Positions 33,445 to 53,339 of a stretch of DNA of 53,339 nt are shown here, piece by piece (positions within the stretch are counted from its first letter, which is position 1; each line of letters opens with the position of its first letter). The notes beneath the pieces were generated by a model. It was given only the letters and a program-made list of their open reading frames with translations. It made no database searches and was not told the origin of the DNA. This DNA is from Candidatus Solibacter sp. (GTDB lineage Bacteria; Acidobacteriota; Terriglobia; Bryobacterales; Bryobacteraceae). The DNA lies in the NCBI GenBank assembly GCA_025361425.1, contig JANYAH010000268.1, forward strand, positions 1-53,339. The letters run 5' to 3'. Both the position numbers and the translations under genes were made by a program.

Positions 33445-33481
33445 TAACTTCACTTCGGCAGACTAGACCCAAACCATGCCG

Positions 33482-33652: not shown

Positions 33653-33653
33653 A

Positions 33654-33665
33654 GTACATATGTAC
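33654..33665. promoter_or_regulatory. Perfect palindrome GTACATATGTAC at the small-gene start
   Basis: GTACATATGTAC lies two bases before the ATG of the 56-residue protein, where the ribosome site should be. It would suit a dimeric repressor or a small RNA hairpin blocking translation, but no such regulator is known here. Confidence 0.4.
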
Positions 33666-33761
33666 CAGAACTCTTAGTATTTAACAATGGGCATGACAGG
33701 GATAAACTGAATCGTTTTTGCGGGTATTCCGCACCCCGTAAATGGGGGTATCCCATAGCCA

Positions 33762-35066: not shown

Positions 35067-35211
35067 GAAGCTCTATTATAAAGCGCATGCTCGCCGTTCA
35101 CCTGGAGAATGGAGAAGTCGCCACCCGCTCGCTGCCATACCCATTTCGCCGTCGAATCCGGAAATCGGAACCGCTCCATTCCATCTCTTGTTCTGCTACC
35201 CTACTCTTTCC

Positions 35212-36858
35212 GTGCCCCGGAAGTTCCTTACTCTCGCCCTCCTCCTCTCCCTCGGCGCCGGCGCGCTCGCCTACGAGGCGTGGCATCTCGGCCTCACTGC
35301 CGATGAACCGTCGCACCTCGCCGCCTCCTATGCCTGGTGGGTGGGCTCCGATGTGCTTCTGCCCAGCGACACGCCCCCGCTCATGCGCATCATCAGCGGC
35401 TGGGTCCCCCGCGTGATGCGCATTCCTTTGCGCCGCGATACGGAAATGTGGCGCAACCGGAGCGCCTACGACATTGGTGCTACCACTGTCTCCAGCCTCA
35501 GCCCTTCCCGCGCGCAGCGGATGATCTTCTTCATGCGGCTTCCCTTTATCGCCTTCCCGCTGCTGATCGCGTTCCTTCTGTGGCGCTGGGGCGGCGAGTT
35601 ATTCGGCGAACGAATCGCCCTCACGCTAGCCGCCTGCGCGATTCTGGAGCCCACCATTCTGGGCCACGGAGCGCTCATCAAGTCGGACGTCCCGGCGGCC
35701 TTCGGAGCGCTCTGGTTCGCCTACGCGGCATGGCGATATTGGCAGCGTCCGTGCCTCCGCCGCCTGCTGATGATGACCCTGGCCATGCTGATCGCGACCT
35801 TGATTAAGTTCACCCTTCTGCCACTGGTTGCCGTCGCCCTGGCGTTGGCCCTCTGGCGTGGGCCGCGACTCGCCGGTGCGGTCGTCATCCCCCTTGTCTT
35901 CTACGTGGGAACGCTCGCTTCCTACCAGTTTCAGGCGGCCCCTCTCTCGCCGGCGATAACCAGCGATTTCGGCCCAGCGGGAGTGCCACCTCCGCTCATT
36001 CCAGCGGTGCGCGCGCTGGGCCACCTGCCCTGGCCGGAGCAGTGGGTGCGCGGGCTGCAGTTCATCCTGGGTTCGCTACACGGCCCCGGTTTTTCCGGCT
36101 ACCTGCTGGGCCACAAAATCACCGGAATGGTTCCGGCCTACTACCCCCTGGCGTGGGCCGTCAAGTTCCCCATCCCGCTCCAGTTTCTGACCGTGGCCGG
36201 GTTGGCGGCCCTGGCTCTTTCCATCCGGCAACGCAAAGCCGGCGCGGCCGAAGCGTTCATCTGGGGGTCCGCCGCACTGTATTTCGGCCCAGCCGTCTTC
36301 TCCAGCTTCCATATCGGATTCCGGCATGTGCTCCCCGCGTTACCTTTCTTTATTTTGGGAGGCGGCTTCGCGCTGGCCAGGTGGGGAACGGGCCGCGCCG
36401 CCCGCGTCACTTCCGCCGCCGGCTTGGTGTGGCTCGCGGCGACTTCCCTGCACGTCTACCCGCAGGGAATCTCTTACTTCAACGAATGGGTCGGCGGCCC
36501 CGCGCAGGGTTGGAAATACCTGGCCGATAGCAACGTCGATTGGGGACAGAACCTTCCCGAGTTGGCCGCTTTCATGGAGCGGCGCCACATTCCAATGGTC
36601 AAGACCTTCCTGTTCGGGCTGGACGCCCCGGGAAGATACCTGAAGCCCGGAGGCTGGCAGCCCCAGCCCTGGCCATGGGGTGACGGCGTGGTCCTCGAGC
36701 GCCGCCTGCAACCCCTGCCCGGTTTCTACGCGGTCAGCGTTAACCCCCTCACGGGCTTTCTGTCGCCGCCCGGATACGAAAACTACCTGGCGTGTTTCCG
36801 CGACAGCGAGCCGATCGGCCGCGCCGGATACGGCATCCTCATCTACCAAGTGAAGTAG
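35212..36858 (+). CDS. GT-C fold glycosyltransferase (ArnT/PMT-like)
   Basis: The 548-residue protein has about ten membrane helices and, near residue 25, LGLTADEPSHLAASYAWWVG, whose Asp-Glu matches the catalytic acidic motif of GT-C enzymes using lipid-linked sugars. A GHGALIKSDVPAAFGALWFA segment resembles the second acidic site in PMT/ArnT. A soluble C-terminal portion (QGWKYLADSNVDWGQNLPEL onwards) lies outside the membrane. It would transfer a sugar from polyprenyl phosphate to a periplasmic acceptor such as lipid A or a protein. The start is GTG at 35212. Confidence 0.82.
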   Translation: MPRKFLTLALLLSLGAGALAYEAWHLGLTADEPSHLAASYAWWVGSDVLLPSDTPPLMRIISGWVPRVMRIPLRRDTEMWRNRSAYDIGATTVSSLSPSRAQRMIFFMRLPFIAFPLLIAFLLWRWGGELFGERIALTLAACAILEPTILGHGALIKSDVPAAFGALWFAYAAWRYWQRPCLRRLLMMTLAMLIATLIKFTLLPLVAVALALALWRGPRLAGAVVIPLVFYVGTLASYQFQAAPLSPAITSDFGPAGVPPPLIPAVRALGHLPWPEQWVRGLQFILGSLHGPGFSGYLLGHKITGMVPAYYPLAWAVKFPIPLQFLTVAGLAALALSIRQRKAGAAEAFIWGSAALYFGPAVFSSFHIGFRHVLPALPFFILGGGFALARWGTGRAARVTSAAGLVWLAATSLHVYPQGISYFNEWVGGPAQGWKYLADSNVDWGQNLPELAAFMERRHIPMVKTFLFGLDAPGRYLKPGGWQPQPWPWGDGVVLERRLQPLPGFYAVSVNPLTGFLSPPGYENYLACFRDSEPIGRAGYGILIYQVK

Positions 36859-37023
36859 CGGCCGGGCCGGAAGCCGAGCTGTTCCCGATGGAAACGCGCG
36901 CCACCCGCGTCGTCTGCTCGCTCCCGCAGAGCGCGCCATGCGGGGCGGGGCGGTCCATCCTCCGAGAGAAGGATGATCTCGATACCGACGGCTGGCTGAC
37001 CGCCGAGGTGACCGTTTACCGTT

Positions 37024-38019
37024 TCACGCGGGCTGCTGCTGCGTCATGCAGTGCAACGCGCCCAAGCCCCAGATCAACTCCGTGCAGTTGATGCCTACTA
37101 CTTCGCGTCCGGGGAATTGCCTGCCGAGCGTGGTCAGCGCCGCGCGGTCGTTGGGGTCGTTAAAGGTCGGCGCGAGCACCAGTCCGTTGGCGATGTAGAA
37201 GTTGGCGTAGCTGGCGGGCAGTTGCCGGCCGTCAAACCACAGCGGGCGCGGCATGGGAAGCTTGACCACCTTCAATCCGGCACGGCGCAGGGTGGCGGCG
37301 TCCGCCGGGTCGCTCTCGGCGCACAGCACCACCGTCTCCGCATTCACGAAACGCGCGAGGTCGTCGACATGTCCGTGAGTGTCGTCGCCGGCAATTCCAT
37401 TCTTCAGCCAGATGACGCGCACCGCGCCCAAGTAATCGCCCAGGCGGCGTTCGATTTCGGCGCGGCTGAGCTCGGGATTGCGCGCCTGTATGGGGCTGAG
37501 CAGGCACTCTTCCGTGGTCAAGAGCAGCCCCTGTCCGTTGACATCGATGCTGCCGCCCTCCAGCACCATCTTCGGGGTGAATACGGGCAGCTTGAGGCGC
37601 TTGCCGAGGAAAGCGGGGACGGTGGCGTCCTTGCGCCAGTCGTCGTACTTGGCCCAAGCATTGAAGCGCCACGCCGTGAGGGCGATTTCCCCGCGGCGGT
37701 TCTTGACGAACAGGGGACAGTAGTCGCGCGTCCACACGCGGTCGGTTTCCCGCTGGATAAACTCCACGGCATCCAGGTTCGCGCCCACCTTCTCTAGAAT
37801 GCGGCGCGCCTGGGTTTCGAGCGCGGCGGTCCGCACCAGGATGCGGACGCGCTCCACGGCGGCGAGCTTGCGCACGATCTCGCCGTACACCCAGGGTATC
37901 GGCGTAAATCGACCGGGCCAATCCTCGCGGTTGTGCGGCCAGGCGATCCAGGTGGCTGCGTGCGGCTCCCATTCGGCGGGCATGCGGAAACCACGGTTGT
38001 GCGGGGTTTGCGCCTTCAA
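37024..38019 (-). CDS. aguA: Agmatine deiminase
   Basis: AguA hydrolyses agmatine to N-carbamoylputrescine and ammonia. The 331-residue protein has MPAEWEPHAATWIAWPHN, VWTRDYCPLFV, MVLEGGSIDVNGQG, the catalytic GDDTHGHVDDLARFV block and the nucleophile Cys in GLGALHCMTQQ, matching the PAD_porph family. The start is TTG at 38019, overlapping the aguB stop (TTGA), so the two are coupled. Together with AguB it gives a two-step route from agmatine to putrescine. No arginine decarboxylase is seen in the window. Confidence 0.94.
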   Translation of the reverse strand: MKAQTPHNRGFRMPAEWEPHAATWIAWPHNREDWPGRFTPIPWVYGEIVRKLAAVERVRILVRTAALETQARRILEKVGANLDAVEFIQRETDRVWTRDYCPLFVKNRRGEIALTAWRFNAWAKYDDWRKDATVPAFLGKRLKLPVFTPKMVLEGGSIDVNGQGLLLTTEECLLSPIQARNPELSRAEIERRLGDYLGAVRVIWLKNGIAGDDTHGHVDDLARFVNAETVVLCAESDPADAATLRRAGLKVVKLPMPRPLWFDGRQLPASYANFYIANGLVLAPTFNDPNDRAALTTLGRQFPGREVVGINCTELIWGLGALHCMTQQQPA

Positions 38020-38891
38020 TCGATCACCCGATTCACGATCGGTCCGTAGGCGTCGATGCGGCGGTCGCGCAGGAAGGGCCAGTTGCGGCGCACCGATTCG
38101 ATCGCGCGCGGGTCGCACTCCACAATCAGGGTCTCTTCGGCATCGCCAGCCTTGGCGAGGATGCGGCCCTGCGGGTCGGAAACGAAGGAACCGCCCCAGA
38201 ACTCCAGGCCGTCGGCGGCTGGCCCCTCGTGGCCCACGCGGTTCACGGCGGCCACGTAGACGCCATTGGCGATGGCGTGAGAGCGCTGCATGGTCTCCCA
38301 GGCATTGTGCTGTGTGCCGGCCTCGGCCGCGTCGGAATGGTGGAACCCGATCGCCGTGGGATAGAACAGAATCTGCGCACCGCCTAGTGCCGCCAGGCGA
38401 GCGGCTTCGGGATACCACTGGTCCCAGCAGATCAGCGGAGCGATGCGCGCATAACGGGTGTCAAAGCAAGGGAAGCCGAGATCGCCCGGGGTGAAATAGT
38501 ATTTCTCGTAAAACCGCGGATCGTCGGGAATGTGCATCTTGCGGTAGAGTCCGAGAAGTGCGCCGCCGGCATCGATCACCAGCGCCGTATTGTGGAACAC
38601 CCCCGCCATCCGCCGTTCGAAGACCGAACCGACAATCACCACGCTCAGCTCAGCGGCAAGCCTGGTAAAGCTTTCCGTTGTGGGACCTGGAATAGGCTCG
38701 GCAAGATCGAAGGTGGCGAGGTCTTCGGTCTGGCAGAAATACTGCGACCGGAAAAGTTCCTGGACGCAGATAATCTGGGCGCCTTTAGCGGCGGCCTCGC
38801 GAATTCGCCATTCCGCTTTGGCGAGGTTTTCATTGGGGTCGAGCGAGCAGGCCATTTGAATGAGGCCAACCCGGAACTTGGATTGCTTCAC
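38016..38891 (-). CDS. aguB: N-carbamoylputrescine amidase
   Basis: AguB splits N-carbamoylputrescine to putrescine, CO2 and ammonia. The 291-residue nitrilase-superfamily protein has its Glu in IICVQELFRSQYFC, Lys in LLGLYRKMHIPDDP and Cys in APLICWDQWYPEAAR, and the QTEDLATFDLAEPIPGP segment seen in AguB. The GTG at 38891 (VKQSKFRVGLIQMACS) gives the family's usual N-terminus and length. aguA follows with a 4-base overlap; the HAD gene is divergent. Confidence 0.94.
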   Translation of the reverse strand: MKQSKFRVGLIQMACSLDPNENLAKAEWRIREAAAKGAQIICVQELFRSQYFCQTEDLATFDLAEPIPGPTTESFTRLAAELSVVIVGSVFERRMAGVFHNTALVIDAGGALLGLYRKMHIPDDPRFYEKYYFTPGDLGFPCFDTRYARIAPLICWDQWYPEAARLAALGGAQILFYPTAIGFHHSDAAEAGTQHNAWETMQRSHAIANGVYVAAVNRVGHEGPAADGLEFWGGSFVSDPQGRILAKAGDAEETLIVECDPRAIESVRRNWPFLRDRRIDAYGPIVNRVID

Positions 38892-38981
38892 CAGACCATT
38901 GTAGCGGCGCTTGGTATATTTGGATTGCACCATGACGCGCGAGCCGTTGATTTTACGCGAGATGGACCAAGGAGAGTTCGC

Positions 38982-39668
38982 GTGACCCAAGTGCATCGCG
39001 CGCTGGTTTTATTCGATATCGACGGCACCCTGGTTCGGCGCGCGGGGCCCCACCACCGGGCGGCGCTGGTCCACGGCGTGCGGCGGATCACGGGTTTAGA
39101 CACGACCACCGAAGGTATTCCGGTGCAGGGCATGCTGGACCCAGACATTCTAACTGTGATGATGCGTACAGCCGGCGCGGGGCGCGCCGCTATCCGGGAG
39201 GCAATGCCGGAGATACTGAAAGCAGCGGAGCGCTACTATGTGCGCGAGTGTCCGGAGCTGAGCGGCAAACATTGCCCGGGCGTGGTGCCGGTGCTGGAAA
39301 GGCTAACGCGGCGCGGCGTACTGCTGGGCCTGGTAACCGGGAACCTGACGCGCATCGGATGGCGCAAGCTGGAGTGCGCCGGGCTCCACGGATACTTTCG
39401 CTTCGGCGCTTTCGGAGAGATGGCGAAGAATCGCGCGGGGCTGGCAAGACTGGCGATCCGCGAGGCTCGCGGGCGCGGGTGGATCGAACGCAACGCGGCG
39501 GTGTCGCTGATCGGCGATGCGCCGCAGGATATTGAGGCGGCGCGCGCCAACCGGATTCGCGCGATTTCGGTAAGGACGGGGATTACACCCGTCGAGGAAC
39601 TTGAGACTTTGCAGCCGGACTTGCTCTTGCGAGACTTGCGGGATCTGCGGTTGCGCATGGTGGAATAA
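38982..39668 (+). CDS. HAD superfamily hydrolase
   Basis: The 228-residue protein has motif I VLFDIDGTLVRR (nucleophile and acid Asp), motif II LGLVTGNLTR, a Lys-containing FGEMAKNRAGL and motif IV SLIGDAPQDIEAARAN, so all catalytic residues of a phosphatase-type HAD are present with a helical cap in between. The architecture resembles phosphoglycolate phosphatase-like enzymes; the substrate is unknown. The start is GTG at 38982, with AAGGAGA upstream. Confidence 0.88.
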   Translation: MTQVHRALVLFDIDGTLVRRAGPHHRAALVHGVRRITGLDTTTEGIPVQGMLDPDILTVMMRTAGAGRAAIREAMPEILKAAERYYVRECPELSGKHCPGVVPVLERLTRRGVLLGLVTGNLTRIGWRKLECAGLHGYFRFGAFGEMAKNRAGLARLAIREARGRGWIERNAAVSLIGDAPQDIEAARANRIRAISVRTGITPVEELETLQPDLLLRDLRDLRLRMVE

Positions 39669-39675
39669 GGAATCA

Positions 39676-42378
39676 ATGCAAGCTCATCGGCTACTTGGTT
39701 TTCTGCTGTCCGGTGCTAGCGTCTGGGCGCAACAGTACGTGATATCGACCATCGCGGGCGGCGCACCTCCGGCCACGCCCGCCAGCGCCGCGACGGCTTC
39801 CATCGGAGACCCCACGCGGCTGGCCACGGATGCGGCGGGCAACGTCTACTTCGGGAGCCTGCACTCGGTATTCAAAGTGGACACCGGCGGCGCGTTGACA
39901 CGCTTCGCGGGCAACGGGCGCGCCGGAAATTCCGGAGACGGCGGGGCGGCGGCGGCGGCGCAATTGAACTTCCCCATGGGTATCGCGATGGATGCGGCGG
40001 GCAACGTGTTCGTGGCGGATCGGGATGCCTCCGTGGTGCGCAAAATCAGTGCCGGCGGGATTATCACCACCGTGGCGGGCAACGGAACGCGGGGGTTCAG
40101 CGGCGACGGCGGAGCGGCCGTTAGTGCGCAGCTCAACGGCCCGTTCGGCGTGGCGGTGGACGCCGCCGGCAACCTGTACATCGCGGACACAAACAACCAG
40201 GTGGTGCGCCAGGTATCGCCGAACGGCACTATCTCGACGGTGGCCGGGACCGGCACACCGGGCCCTTTGGGCGATGGCGGCGCGGCGCGCAACGCGTGGC
40301 TCGACGGACCCGAGGCAGTGGCGGTGGACGCGGAGGGGAACCTCTACATCGCCGACACCTTCAACGGGCGCATACGCCGTGTCGGCACGGACGGCACCAT
40401 CTCCACCGTGGCCGGGCGGGGCTCAATCGGCATCTTTGGCGGCGATGGCGGTCCGGCGAAGAACGCCGCCCTCTCCCTGCCGACGGATGTGGCGGTGGAC
40501 CGCGCGGGAAACCTGTACATCGCGGACTTCGGCAACACCAAGATCCGTCTGGTGAGCAACGGAACCATTACCACCGTGGCGGGAAAGTACAGCGGTGCTC
40601 CGCGGAGCGAAGGCCAAACCGCAGTGAACGCGCGGTTGGAAGGGCCCACGGGCGTAGCGGTAGATAGCAGCGGGACGATCTACTTTGTGGAGGCCGGGAT
40701 CGGTTCGAGCACGGGCCTGGCGCTGGGCGATTACAAGGTTTGGAAGGTCACCTCGGCGGGCGTACTCACCACATTTGCCGGGAACGGCATACCGAATTTT
40801 TCGCGGGATGGGACGTTGGCGACGGCGACGCAACTCAACAGCCCGTCCGGAGTGGCGGTGGGCGCGTCCGGGGTTTTGTACATTTCGGACACGCAGAACC
40901 AGCGGGTGCGTGCGATCACACCCGGTAGCGCGATCACGACGCTGGCGGGTAGCGGAGTGGCCGGATTCAATGGCGAGATTGAATCGCCGGGCATCGCGCT
41001 GCTCAACCGTCCGCTGGGCGTAGCGGCGGATGCGATGGGCAACTGGTATGTCGCGGACACGGCGAACAACCGGGTGCGCAAGGTACAATCGGGCGGCAAC
41101 CTTTCCACCATCGCGGGCAATGGCAACGCCAGCTATTTCGGCGATGCCGGGCTGGCCACGAAGGGCAGCGTAAACCACCCGGAAGGCGTGGCGGTAGACA
41201 CAGCGGGCAACGTATACATCGCGGACACGTTGGACCACGCGGTGCGCATGGTGACGCCGGAAGGTGTCCTCAGTACCGTGGCGGGGACCGGCAATCCGGG
41301 GTACAGCGGCGACGGCGGGCCGGCCAACCAGGCGAGCCTGCGCAACCCCGGCGGAGTGGCGGTGGATGCCGGCGGCAACGTCTACGTGGCGGACACGGAG
41401 AACAACCAGGTGCGGCGAATCGACACGCAGGGGACGATTACGACGGTGGGAACGGGAGACGCGCTGTTGGGTCCGCGGGGAATCGCGGTGGATCGCGCGG
41501 GCAACCTGTACATCGCCGACACGGGTAACCGGAGCGTCCGCCGCCTTTCGCCGGGCGCACTGGTGACTACCATCGCGGGCAATGGGACGTGCTGTTACTC
41601 GGGCGATGGCGGATTGGCAATGAATGCCCAGTTGAACCAGCCATCGGGCGTGGCGGTGGATGCCAACGGCAACGTCTACGTGGCGGACCCGGCGAACGAT
41701 GCGGTGCGCATGCTGGCGCCGGTCTCGGCGGGCATCACGGTAAAGGCGGTGACCAATGCGGCCAGCAACCTGGCGGCAGCGATAGCGCCGGGGGAGTTGG
41801 TGGTGCTATACGGGGCTGGGCTCGCCGCGGTACAGACGATACTGTTCAACGGCGTGGCTGGTCCGGTACTGTACGCCATGCCCGGGCAGGTGGGAGCAAT
41901 TGTGCCATACGCAGTGGCTGGCGGGTCGGTACAGGTGGTGGTGCAGAGCGCGGCGGCGGCGTCGGCGCCGGTAGCGATCGCGGCCGCGCCAACGGTGCCC
42001 GGAGTGTTCACGGCGGACGGATCTGGGCGCGGGCAGGCCGCGGCGGTGAACCAGGACGGGACGCGGAACGGGTCGGCGACTCCGGCGCGGGCGGGTTCGG
42101 TGGTGTCCCTATACGCGACGGGCGAGGGTCAAACCTTGCCGGCGGGGGTGGACGGCAAGGCGGCGGCGTCGCCGCTGCCGCAGCCGGTGGGTCCGGTCAC
42201 GGTGACCATCGGCGGGTTGCCCGCCGACGTGCGCTACGCGGGCGGGGCTCCGGGGCAGATCGCCGGTGTGATGCAGGTGAATGTGGCGGTGCCGGACGGT
42301 TTGGCGGGTGCGGTATCCGTGGTGTTAAGTGTCGGCGGGGTGGCGAGCCAGCCGGGAGTGACGCTAGCGGTGCGGTAA
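39676..42378 (+). CDS. Large exported NHL-repeat protein with Solibacter C-terminal domain
   Basis: The 900-residue protein has a short signal peptide (AHRLLGFLLSGASVWA) and about a dozen NHL-type blades with the recurring phrases VAVDAAGNLYIADTNNQVVR, STVAGTGTPG and SGDGGPA. It ends in a domain from about residue 690 with ASNLAAAIAPGELVVLYGAG, GVFTADGSGRGQAAAVNQDG and VSLYATGEGQTLPAGVDGKA, which matches the TIGR03437 domain first described from Solibacter. It is secreted or surface-bound; the propeller probably binds protein or polysaccharide. Internal DNA repeats follow the blades. It is one of the clearest lineage markers in this window. Confidence 0.9.
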   Translation: MQAHRLLGFLLSGASVWAQQYVISTIAGGAPPATPASAATASIGDPTRLATDAAGNVYFGSLHSVFKVDTGGALTRFAGNGRAGNSGDGGAAAAAQLNFPMGIAMDAAGNVFVADRDASVVRKISAGGIITTVAGNGTRGFSGDGGAAVSAQLNGPFGVAVDAAGNLYIADTNNQVVRQVSPNGTISTVAGTGTPGPLGDGGAARNAWLDGPEAVAVDAEGNLYIADTFNGRIRRVGTDGTISTVAGRGSIGIFGGDGGPAKNAALSLPTDVAVDRAGNLYIADFGNTKIRLVSNGTITTVAGKYSGAPRSEGQTAVNARLEGPTGVAVDSSGTIYFVEAGIGSSTGLALGDYKVWKVTSAGVLTTFAGNGIPNFSRDGTLATATQLNSPSGVAVGASGVLYISDTQNQRVRAITPGSAITTLAGSGVAGFNGEIESPGIALLNRPLGVAADAMGNWYVADTANNRVRKVQSGGNLSTIAGNGNASYFGDAGLATKGSVNHPEGVAVDTAGNVYIADTLDHAVRMVTPEGVLSTVAGTGNPGYSGDGGPANQASLRNPGGVAVDAGGNVYVADTENNQVRRIDTQGTITTVGTGDALLGPRGIAVDRAGNLYIADTGNRSVRRLSPGALVTTIAGNGTCCYSGDGGLAMNAQLNQPSGVAVDANGNVYVADPANDAVRMLAPVSAGITVKAVTNAASNLAAAIAPGELVVLYGAGLAAVQTILFNGVAGPVLYAMPGQVGAIVPYAVAGGSVQVVVQSAAAASAPVAIAAAPTVPGVFTADGSGRGQAAAVNQDGTRNGSATPARAGSVVSLYATGEGQTLPAGVDGKAAASPLPQPVGPVTVTIGGLPADVRYAGGAPGQIAGVMQVNVAVPDGLAGAVSVVLSVGGVASQPGVTLAVR

Positions 42379-43598
42379 GTGGGCGCCGGCGCGCGGCGAT
42401 CACCGGGCGTCGCGCACTTATTATCCGGCGGGCACGACGGTCGCCGGGTGCCGCGCGGGGGCTGGGCGCGCGGCTACTGTTCGGGATTCGGATGTCAAAG
42501 AACGAGCGGGCGGTCTGTCTGCGAAGATAGCCGGCCTTAGTATACTTATCGAGAAACCGCTCCGGACCCGGAGGGCACCCCGACCGCGGCTGCGCGCGGC
42601 ACATGGCGGGATGGGAGCCGCGACCTACAAGATTTTGTTCGTGTTAGCGGGGCCTTGCGACGGCCGGGCATCGCCACGGCAGCGCCGAGGCGCGAATCGC
42701 AGGCTACTACATACGTGGATGGCTTGGAGCGACTGCCCCCGGTGGCCAGTTTGACGGTGCGGAGAGCGGCGTTGCCGGCCAGGACCAGAACCATGCGGAT
42801 GCCTGATAGACGGTAGTCGCGGCGTGGCGGGCGACGGCGACCAGACAAAGGAAAAATGTGCGCGGGGAGAGCCCTGCCGGGAGATGGAGGATCACAAAGA
42901 GATTTGGGGAAAGAGGGCGCGGGTGTTGGGTGGGAGTGGGAGGCTTGGGTTCGTTGGGTTCGTTGGGTTCGTCGTAAAAATGGATATTGCTGTAAATGAG
43001 AGACTTGTTGGGTTCGTTTGGTAAATTCGCGTGTGCACACGAAGGCGGTCCTGCCAGGGGGGAGCGTGGGCGGAGCGGCAGGTGTTCGGAAATGAGACTA
43101 GGTTCGTTTGGTATGCGCGTGGTAGGCGCGGGCTGGGTTGGGCCACGGAGCGGGGAGAGCGAGTTGGGGTCGATGGGCGTTTGTGCTGCCATACCTTCAC
43201 TTATAACTTACGGGATTCGGGGTTTTGGGGCGGATGGCTTGTAAGTGGCTGATGGGATGAGGAATGGGAAAAAAATGTTCGTGTGACGGGGGTCGGGTGA
43301 CTTGGAATTTGGGGGCTGCTGATTGACGCGGAGGCACGGAGAAACAGGCGCAGACAGCGTACGGGATTAGCTTCGACCCTCTCCCGGTTCTGGATGAGCA
43401 TGCAGGCATCCTGGGAGTTAGAGGTGGCGGAGGAGCGACTGGGCCGTGAGGTGCTGCCCAGGACGGCGTGAGCGGTCGGAATCCGGACGGGCCTGCGTCT
43501 CAGTGGTGACCACGAAGTTTGAGTGATTGGGGCGAATCAAGGGCGGTGAACTCGTCTTGATGGACGGCGTCCGGCCACGGGTTCCGGAAGGAGAAGAG
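42379..43598. other. Long gene-poor region before the CRISPR locus
   Basis: I see no convincing gene in these 1.2 kb. The plus strand is unusually G-rich, and its frames are short or lack family signals. It contains the TTGGGTTCG repeats at 42945-43113, a short GACGCGGAGGCACGGAGAAA element near 43324 that may be a decayed dispersed repeat, and A/T-rich patches near 43200 and 43270. It separates the NHL gene from the cas operon and may be an insertion or decay zone. Confidence 0.55.
42945..43113 (+). repeat. TTGGGTTCG tandem and dispersed units
   Basis: Three perfect tandem copies of TTGGGTTCG lie at 42945-42971, and a fourth at 43008-43016. A longer imperfect direct repeat, AAATGAGA...GGTTCGTTTGGTA...GCGTG, occurs at 42994-43032 and again at 43090-43122, with GGTTCGTTTGGTA exact in both. 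The region codes for nothing recognisable. Confidence 0.65.
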
Positions 43599-43715
43599 AT
43601 GAACACTCCGACGGTTGCCGCCGCAAATTACGGTAACAGAATCTCAAACTCTCAAATTGGGGCTTTCCCTGGCACGCGCAAGAGCGTACTATTGTGGTTC
43701 CGCGATGCTGGCTGA
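43599..43715 (+). CDS. Putative 38-residue ORF just upstream of cas3
   Basis: The ATG at 43599 has an ideal AAGGAG five bases before it. The 38-codon frame (MNTPTVAAANYGNRISNSQI, then GAFPGTRKSVLLWFRDAG) ends in TGA at 43713-43715, only 6 bases before the cas3 ATG. cas3 itself lacks a clear ribosome site, so translational coupling is plausible. The sequence resembles no family I know. It could be a leader peptide or chance. Confidence 0.4.
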   Translation: MNTPTVAAANYGNRISNSQIGAFPGTRKSVLLWFRDAG

Positions 43716-43721
43716 GAACAA

Positions 43722-46175
43722 ATGACTGAATTCGACAGGTTTTTCCAAAGGATCACCAACAATTTACCTTATGAATATCAGAAGCAGGTGGCCAACTTAC
43801 CGGCCAAGGATTGTCTCATTCGAGTTCCGACTGGTTGCGGCAAGACGGCTGCGGTGATCTGCGCGTGGCTGTGGCGCATACGGGAACACCGTGCTCAAAC
43901 GCCTACCCGACTTGTCTACTGTCTGCCTATGCGGGTGCTTGTAGAGCAGACCCGAACACTGGCCGCGGAGTGGGCGCCGAGATCGGAGACAGGAGTCCAG
44001 GTATACAGCCTGATGGGCGGTGAGATAGACAAGGACTGGGAATTCGATCCAGGAAAGCCGGCGATTTTCGTGGGCACGCAAGATCAGTTGCTCAGCCGCG
44101 CCCTCAACCGAGGTTACGCGATGAGCCGGTATCGCTGGCCGGTCCATTTTGGCCTACTCAACAACGATTGTCTGTGGGTGTGCGACGAAGTTCAGTTGAT
44201 GGGTAATGGGCTCGGAACGACGGCGCAACTGCAAGCGTTCCGCCAGAAGTGGGGCACCTATGGCCCGGTCGCGACGTGGTGGATGTCGGCCACGGCAGAT
44301 CGCGAGTGGCTCAAGACCGTGGACTATGAGGATGCGGCGCAGATTGAGCTGGTGGAATTGGAAAAGACGGATCGGGACGTCCAACTTCGGAGCGTGTACA
44401 CGGCAGCTAAACCGATTGAGCGACTGGACACACTGGATCGGGCGAACGTAGAGCGTTTGCACCGTGCAGGCACGCTAACGCTGGTTGTGCGCAATACGGT
44501 TACGCGCGCGAGAGAGTTGTATGATTCTCTGCGTCTTGCGAGGCGCGACAAGAAAACAGCGGACGTTGGGGAACTCTCTCCCGAGACGGTATTGATCCAT
44601 AGCCGATTCCGCCCACCCGACCGGGAACGGAGTTTGCGTAAGTTGCTGGTTGCCGACAAATTGCTCCGAGGCGAGGCGGCGGACTGCGAGGGACTGGATA
44701 CGAAGTGGCTGGACCGGGTTAAGGAGACGGGGCTAATAGCGGTTACCACCCAGGTAGTGGAAGCTGGCGTTGACCTGTCCGCCGAGACGCTGATCACTGA
44801 GATAGCGCCATGGCCGAGTATGGTCCAGCGTTTAGGGCGATGCAATCGCGGAGGGAAGCAAGACGGGCGAGCGAAGGTTCGGTGGGTTCCATTACTTGAC
44901 AAAGAAGCAGCCCCTTATGAGGTAGGGCAGCTAAAGGAAGCTCGTATCAAACTGGAGCAACTGACAGACGGCAGTATAGCGAACCTCGAACAGTTTCAGC
45001 CGTTTGCCGGGCAGAAACCGACTCATGTGATAAGGCAGCACGATCTGCATGGCCTCTTCTCGACGGAACCGGACCTGACCGGAGGTTTCACGGATATTTC
45101 GGCGTATGTGCGCGACGCTGAGCGGGACATGTCGGTCTACGTCTTTTGGCGCGAGAAGCCGGGTAAGGACGAAGCAGCGCCAGTGCGGGACGAAATTTGC
45201 CCCGTACCGTTGAATAAAGAACTGATGGAGTTTCTCAAGACTCGTAAGGCCAGCGAGTGGAACGGCGAAACGGAGAGATGGGAGCAGCGCCGCCCGAGCG
45301 ATGTCCGACCCGGCATGACCTTGCTGCTGGACCGCAGAGATGGCGGCTACAGCGACGAATTGGGGTGGACAGGCAATAAAGAGGATCTGCCGACGATAAG
45401 CGCCAGGCCGGAAAGCGAAGCGGATGCTGTGAACCGGGACGCATGGAGCGCCACAGGGTGGGATCTGCTTACGGCCCATCCGGGAGATGCAGAAGCGGAG
45501 GCGAAGGCGTTGGTTGGCCACGGCGCTCTAGCGGAGAGCCGCGAGGCCCGGGCGGTCGTTCTTGCTTCGCTATGGCACGACGTGGGGAAGAGTCATCCGA
45601 AATGGCAGGGCGCCTTGCCGACGAAAGGACGGCCTGGAGTTGGACCGTGGGCGAAGTTCCAACTTCCCGCCGGGGAGAGGTTCCGTCCGGACATGAGGCA
45701 CGAAGCGGCAAGCGCACTCTACTGCTTCGATCAGTGGCGTGCGGGAGTGGAAGGATGGACGGCGCTGGCGGTGTATCTAGTGGCAGCGCACCACGGTAAG
45801 GTGCGCACCGTGTTGCGCAGCAGAAAAGTCGGCATATCAGAAGACGTGTTTGGGATCCTGGACGGCGACAAACTGCCCGCACTAGATGGCTGGGTAAATG
45901 CGGAGTACACACTGAATGCGGCTTGCCGGGTTTTTGGGGCATCGGGCGATTGGACCGATGACGAAGAGGCTTTTGAGCTGGTGTCACCAAGTTGGGTGGG
46001 GATGGTGGCGGAATTGTTGGGACCGGAGGCGAAAGACGACGTCGCCCCTGACGATGCGGTACCGGGGAGCGAACCTCGCCACTTAGGGCCGTTCCGCCTG
46101 GCCTATTTGGAAGCGCTAATCGTAGCGGCTGACGTGCGGGCAAGCCGCAAGCCGGGCGCGGGAGGGGTTGCATGA
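43722..46175 (+). CDS. cas3: Type I-G Cas3 helicase-nuclease, HD domain at C-terminus
   Basis: The 817-residue Cas3 has a DExH helicase at the N-terminus: Walker A PTGCGKT at 36-42, CDEVQLMGNG (DEVQ at 155-158), WMSAT with SAT at 189-191, TQVVEAGVDLSAE and MVQRLGRCNRGG (motif VI). The HD nuclease is C-terminal, LASLWHDVGKSHPKWQ with H619-D620, and further His pairs at VAAHHGKVRT. This order, helicase first and HD last, is typical of type I-G/I-U. It would be recruited to the Cascade-bound target, unwind it and degrade it. It opens the operon and overlaps csx17 by 4 bases. Confidence 0.94.
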   Translation: MTEFDRFFQRITNNLPYEYQKQVANLPAKDCLIRVPTGCGKTAAVICAWLWRIREHRAQTPTRLVYCLPMRVLVEQTRTLAAEWAPRSETGVQVYSLMGGEIDKDWEFDPGKPAIFVGTQDQLLSRALNRGYAMSRYRWPVHFGLLNNDCLWVCDEVQLMGNGLGTTAQLQAFRQKWGTYGPVATWWMSATADREWLKTVDYEDAAQIELVELEKTDRDVQLRSVYTAAKPIERLDTLDRANVERLHRAGTLTLVVRNTVTRARELYDSLRLARRDKKTADVGELSPETVLIHSRFRPPDRERSLRKLLVADKLLRGEAADCEGLDTKWLDRVKETGLIAVTTQVVEAGVDLSAETLITEIAPWPSMVQRLGRCNRGGKQDGRAKVRWVPLLDKEAAPYEVGQLKEARIKLEQLTDGSIANLEQFQPFAGQKPTHVIRQHDLHGLFSTEPDLTGGFTDISAYVRDAERDMSVYVFWREKPGKDEAAPVRDEICPVPLNKELMEFLKTRKASEWNGETERWEQRRPSDVRPGMTLLLDRRDGGYSDELGWTGNKEDLPTISARPESEADAVNRDAWSATGWDLLTAHPGDAEAEAKALVGHGALAESREARAVVLASLWHDVGKSHPKWQGALPTKGRPGVGPWAKFQLPAGERFRPDMRHEAASALYCFDQWRAGVEGWTALAVYLVAAHHGKVRTVLRSRKVGISEDVFGILDGDKLPALDGWVNAEYTLNAACRVFGASGDWTDDEEAFELVSPSWVGMVAELLGPEAKDDVAPDDAVPGSEPRHLGPFRLAYLEALIVAADVRASRKPGAGGVA

Positions 46176-48199
46176 GCCGGATGCTGACAGCAGTTCACTG
46201 CGAGGGAATTCGAGTGGACTGCCTGGGGAACTATTTGGCTGGGCTCGGGCTGCTAGCGGCAATATCGCGGCGCTGGCCGAATGTCCGCGGCTGCTGGCGG
46301 CGCGGACATTTCGTGTTGGTGGGCGAGTCGCTTGACGCTGAAGCGGTGGAGCGGTTTCTGCTGGATGAGTGGAAACCCTCGCCATATGAGAACTGGTGGA
46401 GCAAGGCGCAGAAGGCAGACACGAAGGCGAAATCGGACCGTGGAATTCAGGCCATTCGCGCATCGGAACCCGATCTGGGTCGGGTTCGTTTGCTCGACTG
46501 TCACCTAGTTGGCAGCGGGCGCAATCAGTTCAACACGGTGTTCGGGACGGGCGGCAACATCGGGAAGCGAAATCTGGCGAAGGTGTACCGCGATGCGGTT
46601 GGCTTGCTGGGCGGCCAGGACCGGCAGGCGAATGACGGCTGGTTGCAGACGACACTATTCGCGCAGGCCGGTGGGGCGCTGCCCGATTTGGGTTCCGCCG
46701 GCACGTGGTTTGTATACGCGAACAAGACGTTTAATAGCGGCCAGGAGTGGTATCGCGAAGGAAAGATATCGCCGTGGGCTTTTCTGTTGGCCCTCGAAGG
46801 GGCGCGCTTACTGCGCGGCGGCGCGGGACGGCGACTGGGATCGCGTGCACGACCCTACGCCGTGTTTCCTTTCCTCTGCGATGCGCCGTCCCCCACGACA
46901 GAAGGAGAGATCAAGCTAACTCGCGCCGAGTTTTGGGCGCCGGTTTGGGAGCAACCCGCGAACTTCGCAGAATTGGAAGCGCTACTCGAACGAGGCCTAG
47001 CTCGCTTGGGTGATCGTGCGGCGAAAGCACCACACGAGTTTGCGCTGGCGGCCCGCAGCGCGGGTGTGGATAGCGGGATTGGAACCTTCGCGCGATTTTC
47101 ACTACGACAAACTACGAGCAGCCAAGTGTTCGAGGCAATTCCGGGAGAAACGGTACGCGTCGCCAACAAAGGAGGAAGCGAGAGCGATTTGCTGTGGCCT
47201 CTGCTCGAATGGATGAAGTTCTTGCCGGAGCCGCCTTCCAGCACCAAGCGAGCGAAGTTTCGCGGCATGCGCGGGCCTATAGAGATGGAGATAATCCGCC
47301 TCGCCGAGCGGCCCGACGATGCGGAACGCTGGCAGTCGCTTCTGCTCTTGCTCGCGGCCGTCCAGGATCGCCTGGACCGCAACAGGGCATTCCGTGAACA
47401 TTCACGCCCAGTGGCTCCGCTGGATCCAAAGTGGTTCGACAAAGCTTGGCCCGCGGCTCCGCCAGAAATCCTGGTGACGCGAGCAATTGCCTCAGTCGGA
47501 GCCGGGTCCAATGCTCCGCTGTTTGTCAACGTGGTTGGGGCAGATGAGGACAAGTGGGGCAACTGGACGTTTCCCCCGAGCCGCCCGAACCGGGCGGTCT
47601 ACCATTCCGGCGATCCGGCGCGCGCGCTGGCCGGAATTCTGGAAAGGCGCCTGGTCGATGCGGAGGTCCTTGAAGGGTTGCCGCTGGGAGGGGCTGCGCC
47701 TTGCATGCCAGGAACAATCGACGCCGTTCTCAGCGGATCGATCGACTTGGAGTTGGTGGTCCGTTGGTTGCCGGCGATGGTCTTGCTGGACTGGCGGGGC
47801 TTCAAAAGCAGCCCAGAGCGATCTGGAGCGGTCTCCAGTGCCTATTTCCTTCACGCTCTGTTCCGCCCCTTGTTCCATCCGGGCAGAGTCGTGCTGCAAG
47901 GGCAAGCGCTGTTCCGGGAAGAGCGACAGCGAGGAGCGCCACCTGCGAAGAAGGCGGCCACGGCGCGGAGAATCTTGAATTTGATTCGATCGGGCGACTG
48001 GTCGCAGGCCGTTGACGCGGCGCGCGCCCGCTATTTAGCTGAAGGCCTACGGACCATTACTCTCCCGGCGGAAATCGACGCAGACGGCGAGCGAATGGCG
48101 GCGGCGCTGTTGATTCCGATGCGCAGTGCGGATGTGGCGGCCGGGTTCGAAAGGTGGCTGGAACCACGTTCGGATAGGACAGAAAGGGAAGGAAAGTAA
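46172..48199 (+). CDS. csx17: Csx17 (Cas8g) large subunit of type I-G
   Basis: The 675-residue protein begins with VHCEGIRVDCLGNYLAGLGL and has the family blocks GRNQFNTVFGTGGNIGKRN, RGGAGRRLGSRARPYAVFPF, FALAARSAGVDSGIGTFARF and RPLFHPGRVVLQGQALFREE. These match Csx17, the type I-G large subunit that replaces Cas8 and probably checks the PAM and holds Cas3. It has no catalytic site known. The ATG overlaps the cas3 stop (ATGA), and its TAA overlaps the csb1 ATG by one base. Confidence 0.92.
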   Translation: MSRMLTAVHCEGIRVDCLGNYLAGLGLLAAISRRWPNVRGCWRRGHFVLVGESLDAEAVERFLLDEWKPSPYENWWSKAQKADTKAKSDRGIQAIRASEPDLGRVRLLDCHLVGSGRNQFNTVFGTGGNIGKRNLAKVYRDAVGLLGGQDRQANDGWLQTTLFAQAGGALPDLGSAGTWFVYANKTFNSGQEWYREGKISPWAFLLALEGARLLRGGAGRRLGSRARPYAVFPFLCDAPSPTTEGEIKLTRAEFWAPVWEQPANFAELEALLERGLARLGDRAAKAPHEFALAARSAGVDSGIGTFARFSLRQTTSSQVFEAIPGETVRVANKGGSESDLLWPLLEWMKFLPEPPSSTKRAKFRGMRGPIEMEIIRLAERPDDAERWQSLLLLLAAVQDRLDRNRAFREHSRPVAPLDPKWFDKAWPAAPPEILVTRAIASVGAGSNAPLFVNVVGADEDKWGNWTFPPSRPNRAVYHSGDPARALAGILERRLVDAEVLEGLPLGGAAPCMPGTIDAVLSGSIDLELVVRWLPAMVLLDWRGFKSSPERSGAVSSAYFLHALFRPLFHPGRVVLQGQALFREERQRGAPPAKKAATARRILNLIRSGDWSQAVDAARARYLAEGLRTITLPAEIDADGERMAAALLIPMRSADVAAGFERWLEPRSDRTEREGK

Positions 48200-49341
48200 T
48201 GAGCCAAACGAGTGAATTGAACCTTGAGAAATTGCTGGAGCCAACAGGTCCGGCCTGTTTGATTGTGACAGCCAAATTGGCTCCGGTCGCCGATATGGAC
48301 CGTTTCCAGCCGGCTGGCTTTCCAGAGGTCGGCCACGTGATTTACAAAGCGCCGCGGAAGGACGGACGCGCCGAGGATGTGTGCATCATCGACAGTCCGG
48401 CGAGCATGGCCAATCACCTGGAAACGGTGTGCTGCCAGAGCGCAACGGACCCGGCACTGCACACGGAGCTAGAGGGCCTGCCATACGTGTCTTGCGTAAC
48501 AGACCGGGACGATGGAAAGCGAGACCGCGTAGTGTGCACGACGCTGACCGAAGGACATCGGATCGCATCGGACTATTTCCTGGACGGCATGCTGGATGCA
48601 GTCTGTAAAGAGGAAAGTGAGCAAGGGCAAGGGAAGAAGAAGAAAAAGGTCGAAGCACATTGGGAGGGGGAAGCGTTCCGAGCGCGGCTGCGAAAGGAGT
48701 TCGGTCTGCAGGAAATAGAAAAGGACAAGCGATACTTTCTCTACCCCGACAACTGGTGGACGATCTACGCCACGATCTTTCGCTACGATCCGAACTCTCT
48801 GGTTCACGGCGTACTCTTCGCCAGGGAACAAATCAAGATCAGCCGAATCCTCACCGCTCATCTGGAAGCAATCGGTGCAGCGCGGGTGGGCCGTTCCGGG
48901 GTGAAGTTTGACCGTTTGGGCAAAACCACGTCGGGACAGCCGATTTTCAACGTGGACGAGGAGACGGCACGGGAGATCCGAGCGACGTTCATTGTCGATT
49001 TGGCACTGCTGCACTCGTACGGGCGGGGCGAATCGGGTTTGAACGCGCTCCAGAAACGGCTGCTGCTGGACTTGGCCATCTGGAAAATCGGGCGCCTGCT
49101 TGGACAGCCCTTCCGATATCGCACGCAGTGCCACCTCGAATGTGAATCCGTGTTATGTACTGCAGGGGAACAGACGGCCACAAAGCTTCCAACGATCGCC
49201 ATCAAAGAGAGTATTGCCCGATGCGAATTCAAGACTGGTGTTACTCAGGTATACTATCCGGCCGCGAAGTTGTTCAAGGTGGCTGAAATTGATGCGACTG
49301 AAGCCAAAGTACCGGAGGATGATGGTTCCGAAGCCGAATAA
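48199..49341 (+). CDS. csb1: Csb1 (Cas7g) backbone subunit
   Basis: The 380-residue protein matches the GSU0053/Csb1 family, the Cas7-type RNA-binding backbone of type I-G: FQPAGFPEVGHVIYKAPRKD, IDSPASMANHLETVC, PDNWWTIYATIFRYDPNSLV, HGVLFAREQIKISRILTAHLEAIGAA (in two parts, with the RAMP-like fold), and FRYRTQCHLECES. A Lys-rich insert (GKKKKKVEAHWEGE) near residue 140 is probably a loop. Several copies would coat the crRNA spacer. The start overlaps csx17 (TAATG). Confidence 0.92.
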   Translation: MSQTSELNLEKLLEPTGPACLIVTAKLAPVADMDRFQPAGFPEVGHVIYKAPRKDGRAEDVCIIDSPASMANHLETVCCQSATDPALHTELEGLPYVSCVTDRDDGKRDRVVCTTLTEGHRIASDYFLDGMLDAVCKEESEQGQGKKKKKVEAHWEGEAFRARLRKEFGLQEIEKDKRYFLYPDNWWTIYATIFRYDPNSLVHGVLFAREQIKISRILTAHLEAIGAARVGRSGVKFDRLGKTTSGQPIFNVDEETAREIRATFIVDLALLHSYGRGESGLNALQKRLLLDLAIWKIGRLLGQPFRYRTQCHLECESVLCTAGEQTATKLPTIAIKESIARCEFKTGVTQVYYPAAKLFKVAEIDATEAKVPEDDGSEAE

Positions 49342-49358
49342 GCGTGAGGGAACCCGCT

Positions 49359-51166
<1,808 letters not shown>

Positions 51167-51175
51167 GGTGTCTTC

Positions 51176-53014
51176 ATGGGCGCGCTGCCAATCCAAATCG
51201 AAGCCAAGCGTTCACTGCCGGACTATCTGCCGGCGCGGATGGTCAACGAGTACGCATACTGTCCGCGACTCTACTTTTATGAATGGGTAGAGGGGCTGTT
51301 CGCGGAGAGCGTCGACACGGTGGAGGGCACGATCCAGCACCGCCGCGTGGACGCCAAGGCGACTGCGCTGCCGTCGGCGGAGGAGATGGAAGGCAAGACG
51401 ACGGACGACGCAAGGCGATCGTCTGTTTCACCTCAAGCGTCTGTCTCACCTCAAGCGTCCGTGCCACCGCTGCCGCAATCGATCCACTCGCGGAGCGTGC
51501 AGTTGTCGAGCGAGCGGCTGCGGGTGATCGCGAAGATGGACCTGGTCGAGGTTGAAGACGGCGTGGCGACCCCCGTGGATTACAAGCACGGGCGTCCGCG
51601 GGACGGGGCTGACGGGCTCGAATTGTGGCCGGCGGACCGGGCGCAGCTCGGCGTCCAGGGAATCGTCCTGCGGGAGAATGGGTACCGGTGCGACGAAGGG
51701 GTGGCGTACTACCGCAAGACGGGGCAGCGGGTGCGGGTGGTGTTCGACGCGGCGCTGATCGCGGAGACGGAGGCGCTGATTCTGGGAGCGTGGGGCCTGG
51801 CGGAATCGGGAGAGATTCCGGCGCCGCTGATGGATTCGCCGAAGTGTCCGGGGTGCTCGCTGGTAGGGATCTGCCTGCCCGACGAGACGTGGCGGGCGGG
51901 AGCGGAGGAGGCGGACGAACCGCTACAACTGGCGCTCTTCGACCTGCCGCGGCGCAAGCCGGCGAAGCGCGAAGTTCGCCCGATGATGACGCCGCGCAGC
52001 GAACTGCGCCCGCTGTATCTCAACACGCAGGGAGTAAAGATCGGGAAGAGCGGGGCGGTGCTACAGGTGAAGGACAAGGAGAAGCTGCTGCAAGAGGTGA
52101 GGATCGGCGAGATCTGCCAGGTAAACCTAATGGGGAACGTGCAGATCACGACGCAGGCAGTGCAGGCGCTGTGCGAGGCGGAAGTGCCGATCTGCTACTT
52201 CTCGATGGGCGGGTGGTTCTACGGGATCACGCTGGGATTGAACACAAAAAACGTGTTCCTGCGGCGGAACCAGTTCCGGCTGGCGGAGCAGGAGTATTTC
52301 GCGCGAACCATCGCGCGGCGGCTGGTGGCGGGGAAGATTCGCAACCAGAGAACGCTGTTGCAGCGGAATCACGTGGAGCCGAAGCGGGAGACGCTGTCGG
52401 GGATGAAGGCGATGGCGGAGCGAGCGGAGGGCGCGGGGTCGCTGGAGGAGTTGTTGGGGCTGGAGGGGAATGCGGCGCGGATGTACTTCGGGGAGTTTGC
52501 GGGGATGATGAAGCCGGACGAGGAGGCGGGGACGAGTCCGCTGCCGTTCGAGATGGACGGGCGGAACCGGCGTCCGCCGAGGGATCCGGTGAACGCGATG
52601 CTGTCGCTGGGGTACAGCTTGTTGGCGAAGGATCTGACGGTGGCGTGCTACGCGGTGGGGTTCGACCCATACGTGGGGTTCTACCATCAGCCGCGGTTCG
52701 GACGGCCGGCGCTGGCGCTGGATTTGATGGAGCCATTTCGAGCGCTAATTGTGGATTCGGCGGTGCTGACGGCGGTGAATACGGGGATGGTGACGGCGCG
52801 GGATTTCGTGCGGGCCGGGGGCGCGGTGGCGTTGACGGCGAGCGGGAGGAAGGCATTTTTCCGGGCGTATGAGATGCGGATGGATACGCTGGTGACGCAC
52901 CCGTTGTTCGAGTACCGGGTGAGCTACCGGCGGTTGCTGGAGATCCAGGCGCGGCTGTTGGCGCGGGTACTGGAGGGGGAGATTTCGGAATACCCGGTGT
53001 TCACGACGCGGTAG
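51176..53014 (+). CDS. cas4-cas1: Cas4-Cas1 fusion protein
   Basis: The 612-residue protein joins a Cas4 nuclease (about 1-245) to Cas1 (about 275-612), the fused form typical of type I-G. Cas4 has YAYCPRLYFYEW (C29), RVIAKMDLVEVEDG and TPVDYKHGR, with the other cluster cysteines in CPGCSLVGIC (224, 227, 233). Cas1 has LEGNAARMYFGEF (Glu430), YHQPRFGRPALALDLMEPFR (His504, Asp516). Cas4 would trim prespacers and set PAM orientation; Cas1 with Cas2 inserts them. A low-complexity insert derived from an 18-bp tandem repeat sits in the Cas4 part at about residues 80-98. The gene is more G-rich at third positions than cas3-csb2. Confidence 0.95.
   Translation: MGALPIQIEAKRSLPDYLPARMVNEYAYCPRLYFYEWVEGLFAESVDTVEGTIQHRRVDAKATALPSAEEMEGKTTDDARRSSVSPQASVSPQASVPPLPQSIHSRSVQLSSERLRVIAKMDLVEVEDGVATPVDYKHGRPRDGADGLELWPADRAQLGVQGIVLRENGYRCDEGVAYYRKTGQRVRVVFDAALIAETEALILGAWGLAESGEIPAPLMDSPKCPGCSLVGICLPDETWRAGAEEADEPLQLALFDLPRRKPAKREVRPMMTPRSELRPLYLNTQGVKIGKSGAVLQVKDKEKLLQEVRIGEICQVNLMGNVQITTQAVQALCEAEVPICYFSMGGWFYGITLGLNTKNVFLRRNQFRLAEQEYFARTIARRLVAGKIRNQRTLLQRNHVEPKRETLSGMKAMAERAEGAGSLEELLGLEGNAARMYFGEFAGMMKPDEEAGTSPLPFEMDGRNRRPPRDPVNAMLSLGYSLLAKDLTVACYAVGFDPYVGFYHQPRFGRPALALDLMEPFRALIVDSAVLTAVNTGMVTARDFVRAGGAVALTASGRKAFFRAYEMRMDTLVTHPLFEYRVSYRRLLEIQARLLARVLEGEISEYPVFTTR
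51422..51457 (+). repeat. 18-bp tandem repeat inside cas4-cas1
   Basis: TCTGTTTCACCTCAAGCG (51422-51439) is followed by TCTGTCTCACCTCAAGCG (51440-51457), then a partial third unit. It encodes SVSPQA twice and then SVPP, a flexible linker between the Cas4 N-terminal strand and the nuclease core. The frame is kept. Confidence 0.8.
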
Positions 53015-53198
53015 TGGGGTGCGAGCGGCGGGTCGGGGTCGATGGAGGGGGGAGCGCTCGCGGACGGGTAAAGACGCGGGAAGGCGGGAGTTAGCGACGT
53101 GGAGATGGTGCGGGGGGCGAGAATTGGGATTAAAATGGAGAGGCGCTCGCGGACAGGCGCACAGGTCATTGAAAACAGAACAGAATATAGGAGTAGCT
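53015..53198 (+). promoter_or_regulatory. CRISPR leader
   Basis: This 184-base non-coding stretch joins the cas4-cas1 stop to the first repeat and should hold the array promoter and integration signals. It contains an imperfect 15-base direct repeat, GCGCTCGCGGACGGG at 53054 and GCGCTCGCGGACAGG at 53143, and becomes AT-rich in its last 35 bases. Confidence 0.7.
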
Positions 53199-53339
53199 AA
53201 ATCCGCGATCAATTGATCGCGGCCCCATTGAAGCGAGACAGTTAAAAACCGCTTCCCGTGCTTCTCTCTGAAATCCGCGATCAATTGATCGCGGCCCCAT
53301 TGAAGCGAGTGACGGTGACGTTCGTGACAGCAACTACAC
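53199..53339 (+). CRISPR. Start of CRISPR array, cut by window edge
   Basis: Two identical repeats begin at 53199 and 53271 with a period of 72. They can be read as 36 bases (ending ATTGAAGC) with a 36-base spacer, or as 39 bases (adding GAG) with a 33-base spacer; two copies cannot decide. The ATTGAAGC end is like the ATTGAAAC 3' end of many type I repeats, so transcription is probably rightward from the leader. Each repeat contains CCGCGATCAATTGATCGCGG, a perfect palindrome. The second spacer is cut by the window end. Confidence 0.93.

Follow-up and report, generated by a model that had tools for sequence, protein, structure and literature searches.

An acidobacterial type I-G CRISPR-Cas locus in which the effector genes and the adaptation genes have different relatives

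The window (the whole stretch of DNA analysed, 53,339 nucleotides) carries a type I-G CRISPR-Cas locus of the Cas8g1/Csx17 variant that is a mosaic of two histories. Its adaptation part (cas2, cas4-cas1, leader and repeat) is akin to that of near relatives in the same genus, and its effector part (cas3, csx17, csb1 and csb2) to that of a lineage of other acidobacteria. We consider it probable that the effector block was exchanged beside resident adaptation genes and array, with the inherited repeats still usable afterwards. The mosaic in the window rests on one metagenome-assembled genome (MAG). Effector exchange is already known in general terms; what is of interest here is an I-G mosaic in which the repeat stays beside the adaptation genes.

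Gene content of the locus

The type I-G assignment, which an earlier note had read from gene order, held gene by gene in profile searches against NCBIfam, Pfam and PADLOC (features are listed in Table 1). Cas3g matched TIGR02621 (cas3_GSU0051) at 613.6 bits against a curated NCBIfam cut-off of 400 (PADLOC Cas3g, E 3.9e-232), Csx17 matched TIGR04113 (cas_csx17) at 350.8 bits (NCBIfam cut-off 150), and the Cas4-Cas1 fusion matched NF049935 (cas4g_cas1g) at 737.8 bits (NCBIfam cut-off 560). Csb1 scored 51.5 bits to TIGR02570 (cas7_GSU0053; cut-off 38) and E 1.1e-26 to PF09617, while Csb2 scored 163.4 bits to TIGR02165 (cas5_6_GSU0054; cut-off 45) and 22.5 to PF09609 (cut-off 21). Cas2 was placed by TIGR01573 (38.8 bits, cut-off 24.5), which is a general Cas2 family and not specific to I-G. 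The top PADLOC model was I-G for each of the six proteins, and Pfam placed five of them; no Pfam family matched Csx17.

Table 1. Features of the type I-G locus, in window coordinates
Feature	Position	Strand	Remarks
cas3g	43722-46175	+	Helicase, then C-terminal HD nuclease
cas8g1/csx17	46172-48199	+	Large subunit
csb1/cas7g	48199-49341	+	Backbone subunit
csb2/cas5-6g	49344-50876	+	Predicted crRNA processor; HFGLG motif with His500
Likely edge of exchanged effector segment	50844-50876	+	Last 33 nt of csb2, 29/33 identical to L028
cas2	50876-51166	+	ATG at 50876
cas4g-cas1g fusion	51176-53014	+	Predicted PAM-selecting nuclease and integrase
Leader	53015-53198	+	Between cas4-cas1 and repeat 1
CRISPR repeat 1	53199-53234	+	36 nt; 8-bp hairpin, 4 nt, 8-nt handle ATTGAAGC
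Spacer 1	53235-53270	+	36 nt
CRISPR repeat 2	53271-53306	+	36 nt; identical to repeat 1
Spacer 2	53307-53339	+	33 nt present; cut by contig end

The cas frames are all uninterrupted, and the catalytic motifs that had been described as intact are indeed present. Cas3 carries VPTGCGKT (residue 35), CDEVQ (154), MSATA (188) and QRLGRCNR (369), followed in its C-terminal part by LWHDVGK (617), HEAAS (660) and AHHGK (689), motifs that we take to mark a helicase and an HD nuclease; the Pfam Cas3_HD domain lies at residues 580-744, after the helicase. Solved structures in the PDB matched Csx17 (Csx17 chain 8b2x_M, E 2.7e-36), Csb1 (Cas7 chain 8ane_A, E 1.5e-27), Cas3 (Cas3 helicases, best 7tr8, E 1.5e-12) and Cas4-Cas1 (the Cas4/Cas1 fusion 7mi4, E 1.3e-139). 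Csb2 had no sequence match in the PDB at E 0.1, so its His500 is placed by motif only, a putative assignment made alignment-free from its position near the C-terminus. The cas2 ATG overlaps the csb2 stop as TGATG; the list of open reading frames has a GTG start at 50873 instead. From this gene content, the system may be active in both interference and adaptation. The locus had also been called complete, which stands for the genes and fails for the array, cut as it is by the end of the contig.

Different relatives for the adaptation and effector genes

Compared with the same-genus locus L028, the window has Cas1 98% and Csx17 27% identical, ‘Cas1’ in these pairwise comparisons being the C-terminal 340 residues of every ORF, a rule that misplaces truncated ORFs (e.g. 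L041, L042, L048). By tblastn, cas2 (93%) and cas4-cas1 (92%) stand on one side of the division, and cas3 (35%), csx17 (28%), csb1 (34%) and csb2 (27%) on the other. Trees of the two parts disagree accordingly. In the Cas4-Cas1 tree the window and L028 are sisters (SH-aLRT 94, 95% identity), both falling in a starred group of five rows whose other members are L038, L041 and L029. In the Csx17 tree the window's companions are L109, L114 and L115 (starred, 98), with L028 and L038 far away; L109 comes from another class of the phylum, and L114 and L115 from the same family as the window. These were quick trees with SH-aLRT support only, and some of their rows are long branches (in the Csx17 tree, L123 with L048 and its sister row). 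Approximately unbiased (AU) tests, on groups picked after the trees were viewed, rejected window+L028+L038 for Csx17 (p 2.5e-43) and, for Cas4-Cas1, both window+L109+L114+L115 (p 1.2e-4) and window+L114+L115 (p 8.3e-4).

Searched at E 0.001, the window Csx17 has matches in 14 of 396 phylum genomes, its own included, the best other being G114 (51%). Matches to the window Cas3 at E 1e-40 occur in 24 of 200 from the order, again counting its own, the best near full length being G474 (48%), with shorter matches of 55% in G470 and 66% in G579. As to a vector, Csx17 had no match in a plasmid collection and no relative in viral contigs.

A scan for Cas4-Cas1 gave 34 loci, in 31 of which both cas2 and cas4-cas1 are visible. 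Like the window, 21 of the 31 have cas2 first (L045 as fragments only); the 10 with cas4-cas1 first coincide with the loci at 42-49% Cas4-Cas1 identity to the window. Record titles, from which the module name (‘cas2-first’ or ‘Bryobacterales-type’) was also taken, are acidobacterial for 20 of the 21 cas2-first loci. L109 and L110 are acidobacteria of other classes yet have cas4-cas1 first, so that gene order marks the module type and not the phylum. The remaining cas2-first locus, L040, lies on a contig titled Singulisphaera (Planctomycetota), its Cas4-Cas1 being 60% identical to the window's, and may reflect transfer or misbinning. In L041, L114, L115 and L119 the effector block lies on the strand opposite cas2-cas4-cas1.

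By profile, cas2-first modules stand beside three effector variants: the Csx17 type, Cas8g2/csb3 (TIGR04106; L030, L033 and L036, with L042 at 99 bits, under the cut-off of 125) and the Cas3-extension variant (NF049934; L029, L034, L055 and L059). The window effector is neither of the latter two, which in relatives accompany the same module type and similar repeats. One family of adaptation module and repeat thus adjoins three known I-G effector variants. When effector labels were mapped on the Cas4-Cas1 tree (35 of 46 rows labelled, 11 without label), 12 changes were needed, against an average of 11.1 for shuffled labels, and all 200 shuffles needed no more than that; the effector label is therefore not clustered on this tree. 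The labels of L030, L033, L036, L029, L034 and L055 were tested by profile, that of L043 comes from blastp clustering with the profile-tested L034 and L055, and for L044, L050, L056 and L060 the label is a guess based on the layout of the genes. Six labelled cas2-first pairs have Cas1 identities that round to about 90% or higher, and five of them have different effectors, the exception being L028-L038; these pairs share members and are not independent.

The division between the two parts probably falls at or near the end of csb2. DNA similarity to L028 (blastn) starts near 50791 and continues at 88.5% into the array, and identity to L028 in 20-nt bins over the csb2 stop runs 0.60, 0.75, 0.85 and 0.90. 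Over the same bins L109, L114 and L115 end at 0.45-0.50; in the -40 bin L114 (0.75) and L115 (0.80) are no lower than L028. In the window Csb2, HFGLG is preceded by GDSS, as in L115 (L109 and L114 share the GDS), and followed by QFAAVE, as in L028. The evidence for the junction spans about 33 nt, part of which encodes HFGLG. That motif is widely conserved, so that only QFAAVE, the stop and the downstream DNA are informative, and together they suggest that a crossover may have fallen at this motif. In L110 and L111 the Csb2 C-terminus reads SSSFGLG, with serine in place of the HFGLG histidine. GC content at third codon positions (GC3) also steps here, from 0.66-0.68 in the four effector genes to 0.84-0.86 in cas2 and cas4-cas1; the step in L028 is smaller (0.71-0.76 vs. 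0.85-0.87). However, 32 upstream ORFs, chosen by script and not annotated, average 0.77 with a range of 0.59-0.86, and since the effector values lie within that range the step is weak support for an exchange.

Could this be an ordinary, vertically inherited I-G system whose effectors merely evolve much faster than its adaptation proteins? Measured against its cas2-first relatives, the window indeed diverges far more in its effectors than in its adaptation proteins. Yet L028 and L038 retain 81% identity in Csx17 with Cas1 at 90%, a rate that sits badly with the window-L028 values, and the window Csx17 is nearer to that of L109 (50%) despite a Cas4-Cas1 identity of 48%. A fast but tree-like effector would moreover give matching topologies, and those found differ (see the AU tests above), so that we give this explanation almost no credence. 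An artefact of assembly or binning, with the effector operon and adaptation genes of two organisms joined at similar csb2 ends, has more to recommend it: the MAG is in 377 contigs, the junction lies at a conserved motif, and no other genome among those searched (41 relatives, 200 of the order and 396 of the phylum) has this effector beside this adaptation module. It nonetheless appears unlikely, as the source genome has one Csb2 match and one Cas1 match (E 0.001) and one Cas3g above the cut-off (four weaker helicase matches lie elsewhere), and the reading frame and TGATG coupling are continuous through the junction. Less fragmented assemblies, too, show such combinations: in both G474 (3 contigs, L114) and G016 (2 contigs, L115) a window-type effector stands with a cas2-first Cas4-Cas1, and a different mosaic pairing is present in G454 (1 contig, L122).

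In an exchange of the opposite sense, the effector would have been the resident part, and the adaptation module with its array the newcomer. There is no outgroup that dates the events, and the site gives no direction of exchange: 33001-43721 is without a blastn match in 59 loci, and L028 covers only about 1 kb upstream of cas3. The module is, however, common to same-genus relatives with other effectors (G001 = L028, G006 = L038, and L059), and we regard its arrival beside a resident effector as improbable. Replacement of the effector block beside a resident module is the reading that we prefer.

Repeat, leader and array

The repeat tracks the adaptation half of the locus. Across the 18 loci in which every part is present, Mantel tests correlated repeat identity with that of Cas4-Cas1 (rho 0.65, p 0.0005), and gave 0.06 for Csx17, 0.07 for Csb2 and -0.04 for Cas3; for the 13 cas2-first loci the values were 0.615 (p 0.001), -0.118, -0.126 and -0.255, respectively. 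Among the proteins, Csx17 was correlated with Csb2 (0.88 and 0.89 for 18 and 13 loci) and with Cas3 (0.76 and 0.66), and Cas2 with Cas4-Cas1 (0.70, 13 loci), while Cas4-Cas1 and Csx17 were at 0.01 and -0.08. These loci are related to each other, they include only those with a readable array, and some of their repeat consensuses rest on two or three copies. By correlation, then, the repeat stays beside the adaptation genes; that of L030, which has a csb3 effector, differs from the window's at 1 of 36 positions (0.97). Over 176 nt the leader shares 87.5% identity with its counterpart in L028, and over 168 nt 73.8% with that in L029.

The repeat, AAATCCGCGATCAATTGATCGCGGCCCCATTGAAGC, folds into an 8-bp hairpin (-13.8 kcal/mol) followed by CCCC and the handle. 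Across 30 aligned consensus repeats CATTGAAG is invariant and the stem covaries, with double-sided changes in seven of its eight pairs and 95.8% of cells paired; the corresponding share was 73% for shuffled and 29-43% for slid controls. When repeats were gathered with at most 8 mismatches to each source's consensus, 625 of 631 from 30 sources (the window counted, C333 not) carried the handle ATTGAAGC.

As to spacers beyond the contig end, which the earlier note had proposed to count, a second contig of the same genome (C333, locus L113 of G000) starts with one partial repeat and has six whole ones, with six spacers. With it eight spacers are known in total, one of them cut, a count that takes C333 as the continuation. 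C333 may be the far end of the window array; of the loci compared, L030 alone matches the flank past its array, over 35 nt, apart from C333 itself, so the linkage is tentative. The partial repeat ends in ATTGAAGC, and the six whole repeats (C333, 49-439) all carry ATTGGAGC, a handle found in none of the 631 repeats of the 30 sources (window included, C333 excluded). New CRISPR repeats are copies of the leader-end repeat, and six equal repeats at the far end therefore suggest an older state of the array. Exact matches to the 22-nt starts of four of the eight spacers were sought in IMG/VR as viral targets, and none was found.

If the locus works as studied I-G systems do, Cas4-Cas1 with Cas2 would trim PAM-bearing foreign DNA and insert it at the leader, Csb2 would cut the transcript 4 nt past the repeat hairpin to leave the AUUGAAGC handle, and a guide complex of Csb2, Csb1 and Csx17 would find the target that Cas3 destroys. 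The exchange would have taken the effector part in one block, next to an array that was already resident, with a junction at or near the last csb2 codons. The inherited repeats would still be usable after the exchange because the sampled I-G repeats differ little in hairpin shape, in the nucleotides that follow and in the handle. A bolder version, possible but on balance doubtful, would make the adaptation genes, leader and repeats of this group of acidobacteria a fixed socket into which entire I-G effector blocks, of three variants, have been plugged repeatedly. The window crossover would then lie where the catalytic motif of Csb2 is encoded, the new Csb2 would have kept the resident tail and used the old array at once, and the ATTGGAGC repeats of C333 would be the trace of an earlier effector.

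Comparison with known systems

The fused Cas4-Cas1 aligns over residues 13-70 and 102-612 with the solved fusion 7mi4, which we set with GsCas4/1 and Methanosarcina barkeri Cas4/1; window Cas4-domain residues 71-101 are without counterpart in 7mi4. At 51384-51470 the Cas4 domain has a variable stretch with a short in-frame tandem SVSPQASVSPQASVPP, where DNA similarity breaks in the relatives compared, other than L028. The fusions of Geobacter (GsCas4/1) and M. barkeri (PMC10504553) have the same architecture. In Thioalkalivibrio sulfidiphilus (PMC9638904) the I-G system has the same effector genes as the window and a 36-nt repeat with hairpin, 4 nt and 8-nt handle, Csb2 cutting 4 nt 3' of the hairpin to leave that handle. 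There, however, five genes lie between csb2 and cas4-1, whereas in the window csb2 overlaps cas2 and cas4-cas1 follows.

In situ exchange of effector modules beside a conserved Cas1 is a published general trend (PMC6452270 and PMC12669027, the latter with an example from Flavobacteriales II-C), and the window resembles such cases in having near-identical Cas1 beside unrelated effectors. Exchange has been defined as Cas1 in one 90% cluster with effectors in different 50% clusters; the window and L028 fall on the exchange side of both thresholds (98% and 27% for Csx17). The present case differs in being type I-G, in the three effector variants found with a single module type and in a repeat that follows the adaptation genes. 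The excerpts of PMC9638904, PMC10504553, PMC12669027 and PMC6452270 contain no account of an acidobacterial I-G system with exchanged modules, and a literature search for CRISPR type I-G or subtype I-U in acidobacteria, with most subscription journals outside its scope, found nothing.

Type I-G is described as the least well understood type I branch (PMC9638904), and this locus with its relatives constitutes a natural experiment, in which nearly the same Cas1 and repeat stand beside large subunits that are 27% identical. Two questions become testable with it: which of the two halves, adaptation or effector, the repeat goes with (the adaptation half here, judged by correlation), and whether Csb2, once exchanged, is able to process the array that was there before. 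Should such processing work, the cutting machinery could be changed without loss of immune memory; escape from anti-CRISPRs has been proposed as a motive for effector exchange (PMC6452270).

Upstream of cas3 the window encodes a protein of the Porphyromonas-type peptidyl-arginine deiminase family (37027-38418, minus strand) and a 925-aa NHL beta-propeller protein (39601-42378, plus strand). A low-complexity intergenic stretch at 42850-43050 reads FVGFVGFVV in one translated frame.
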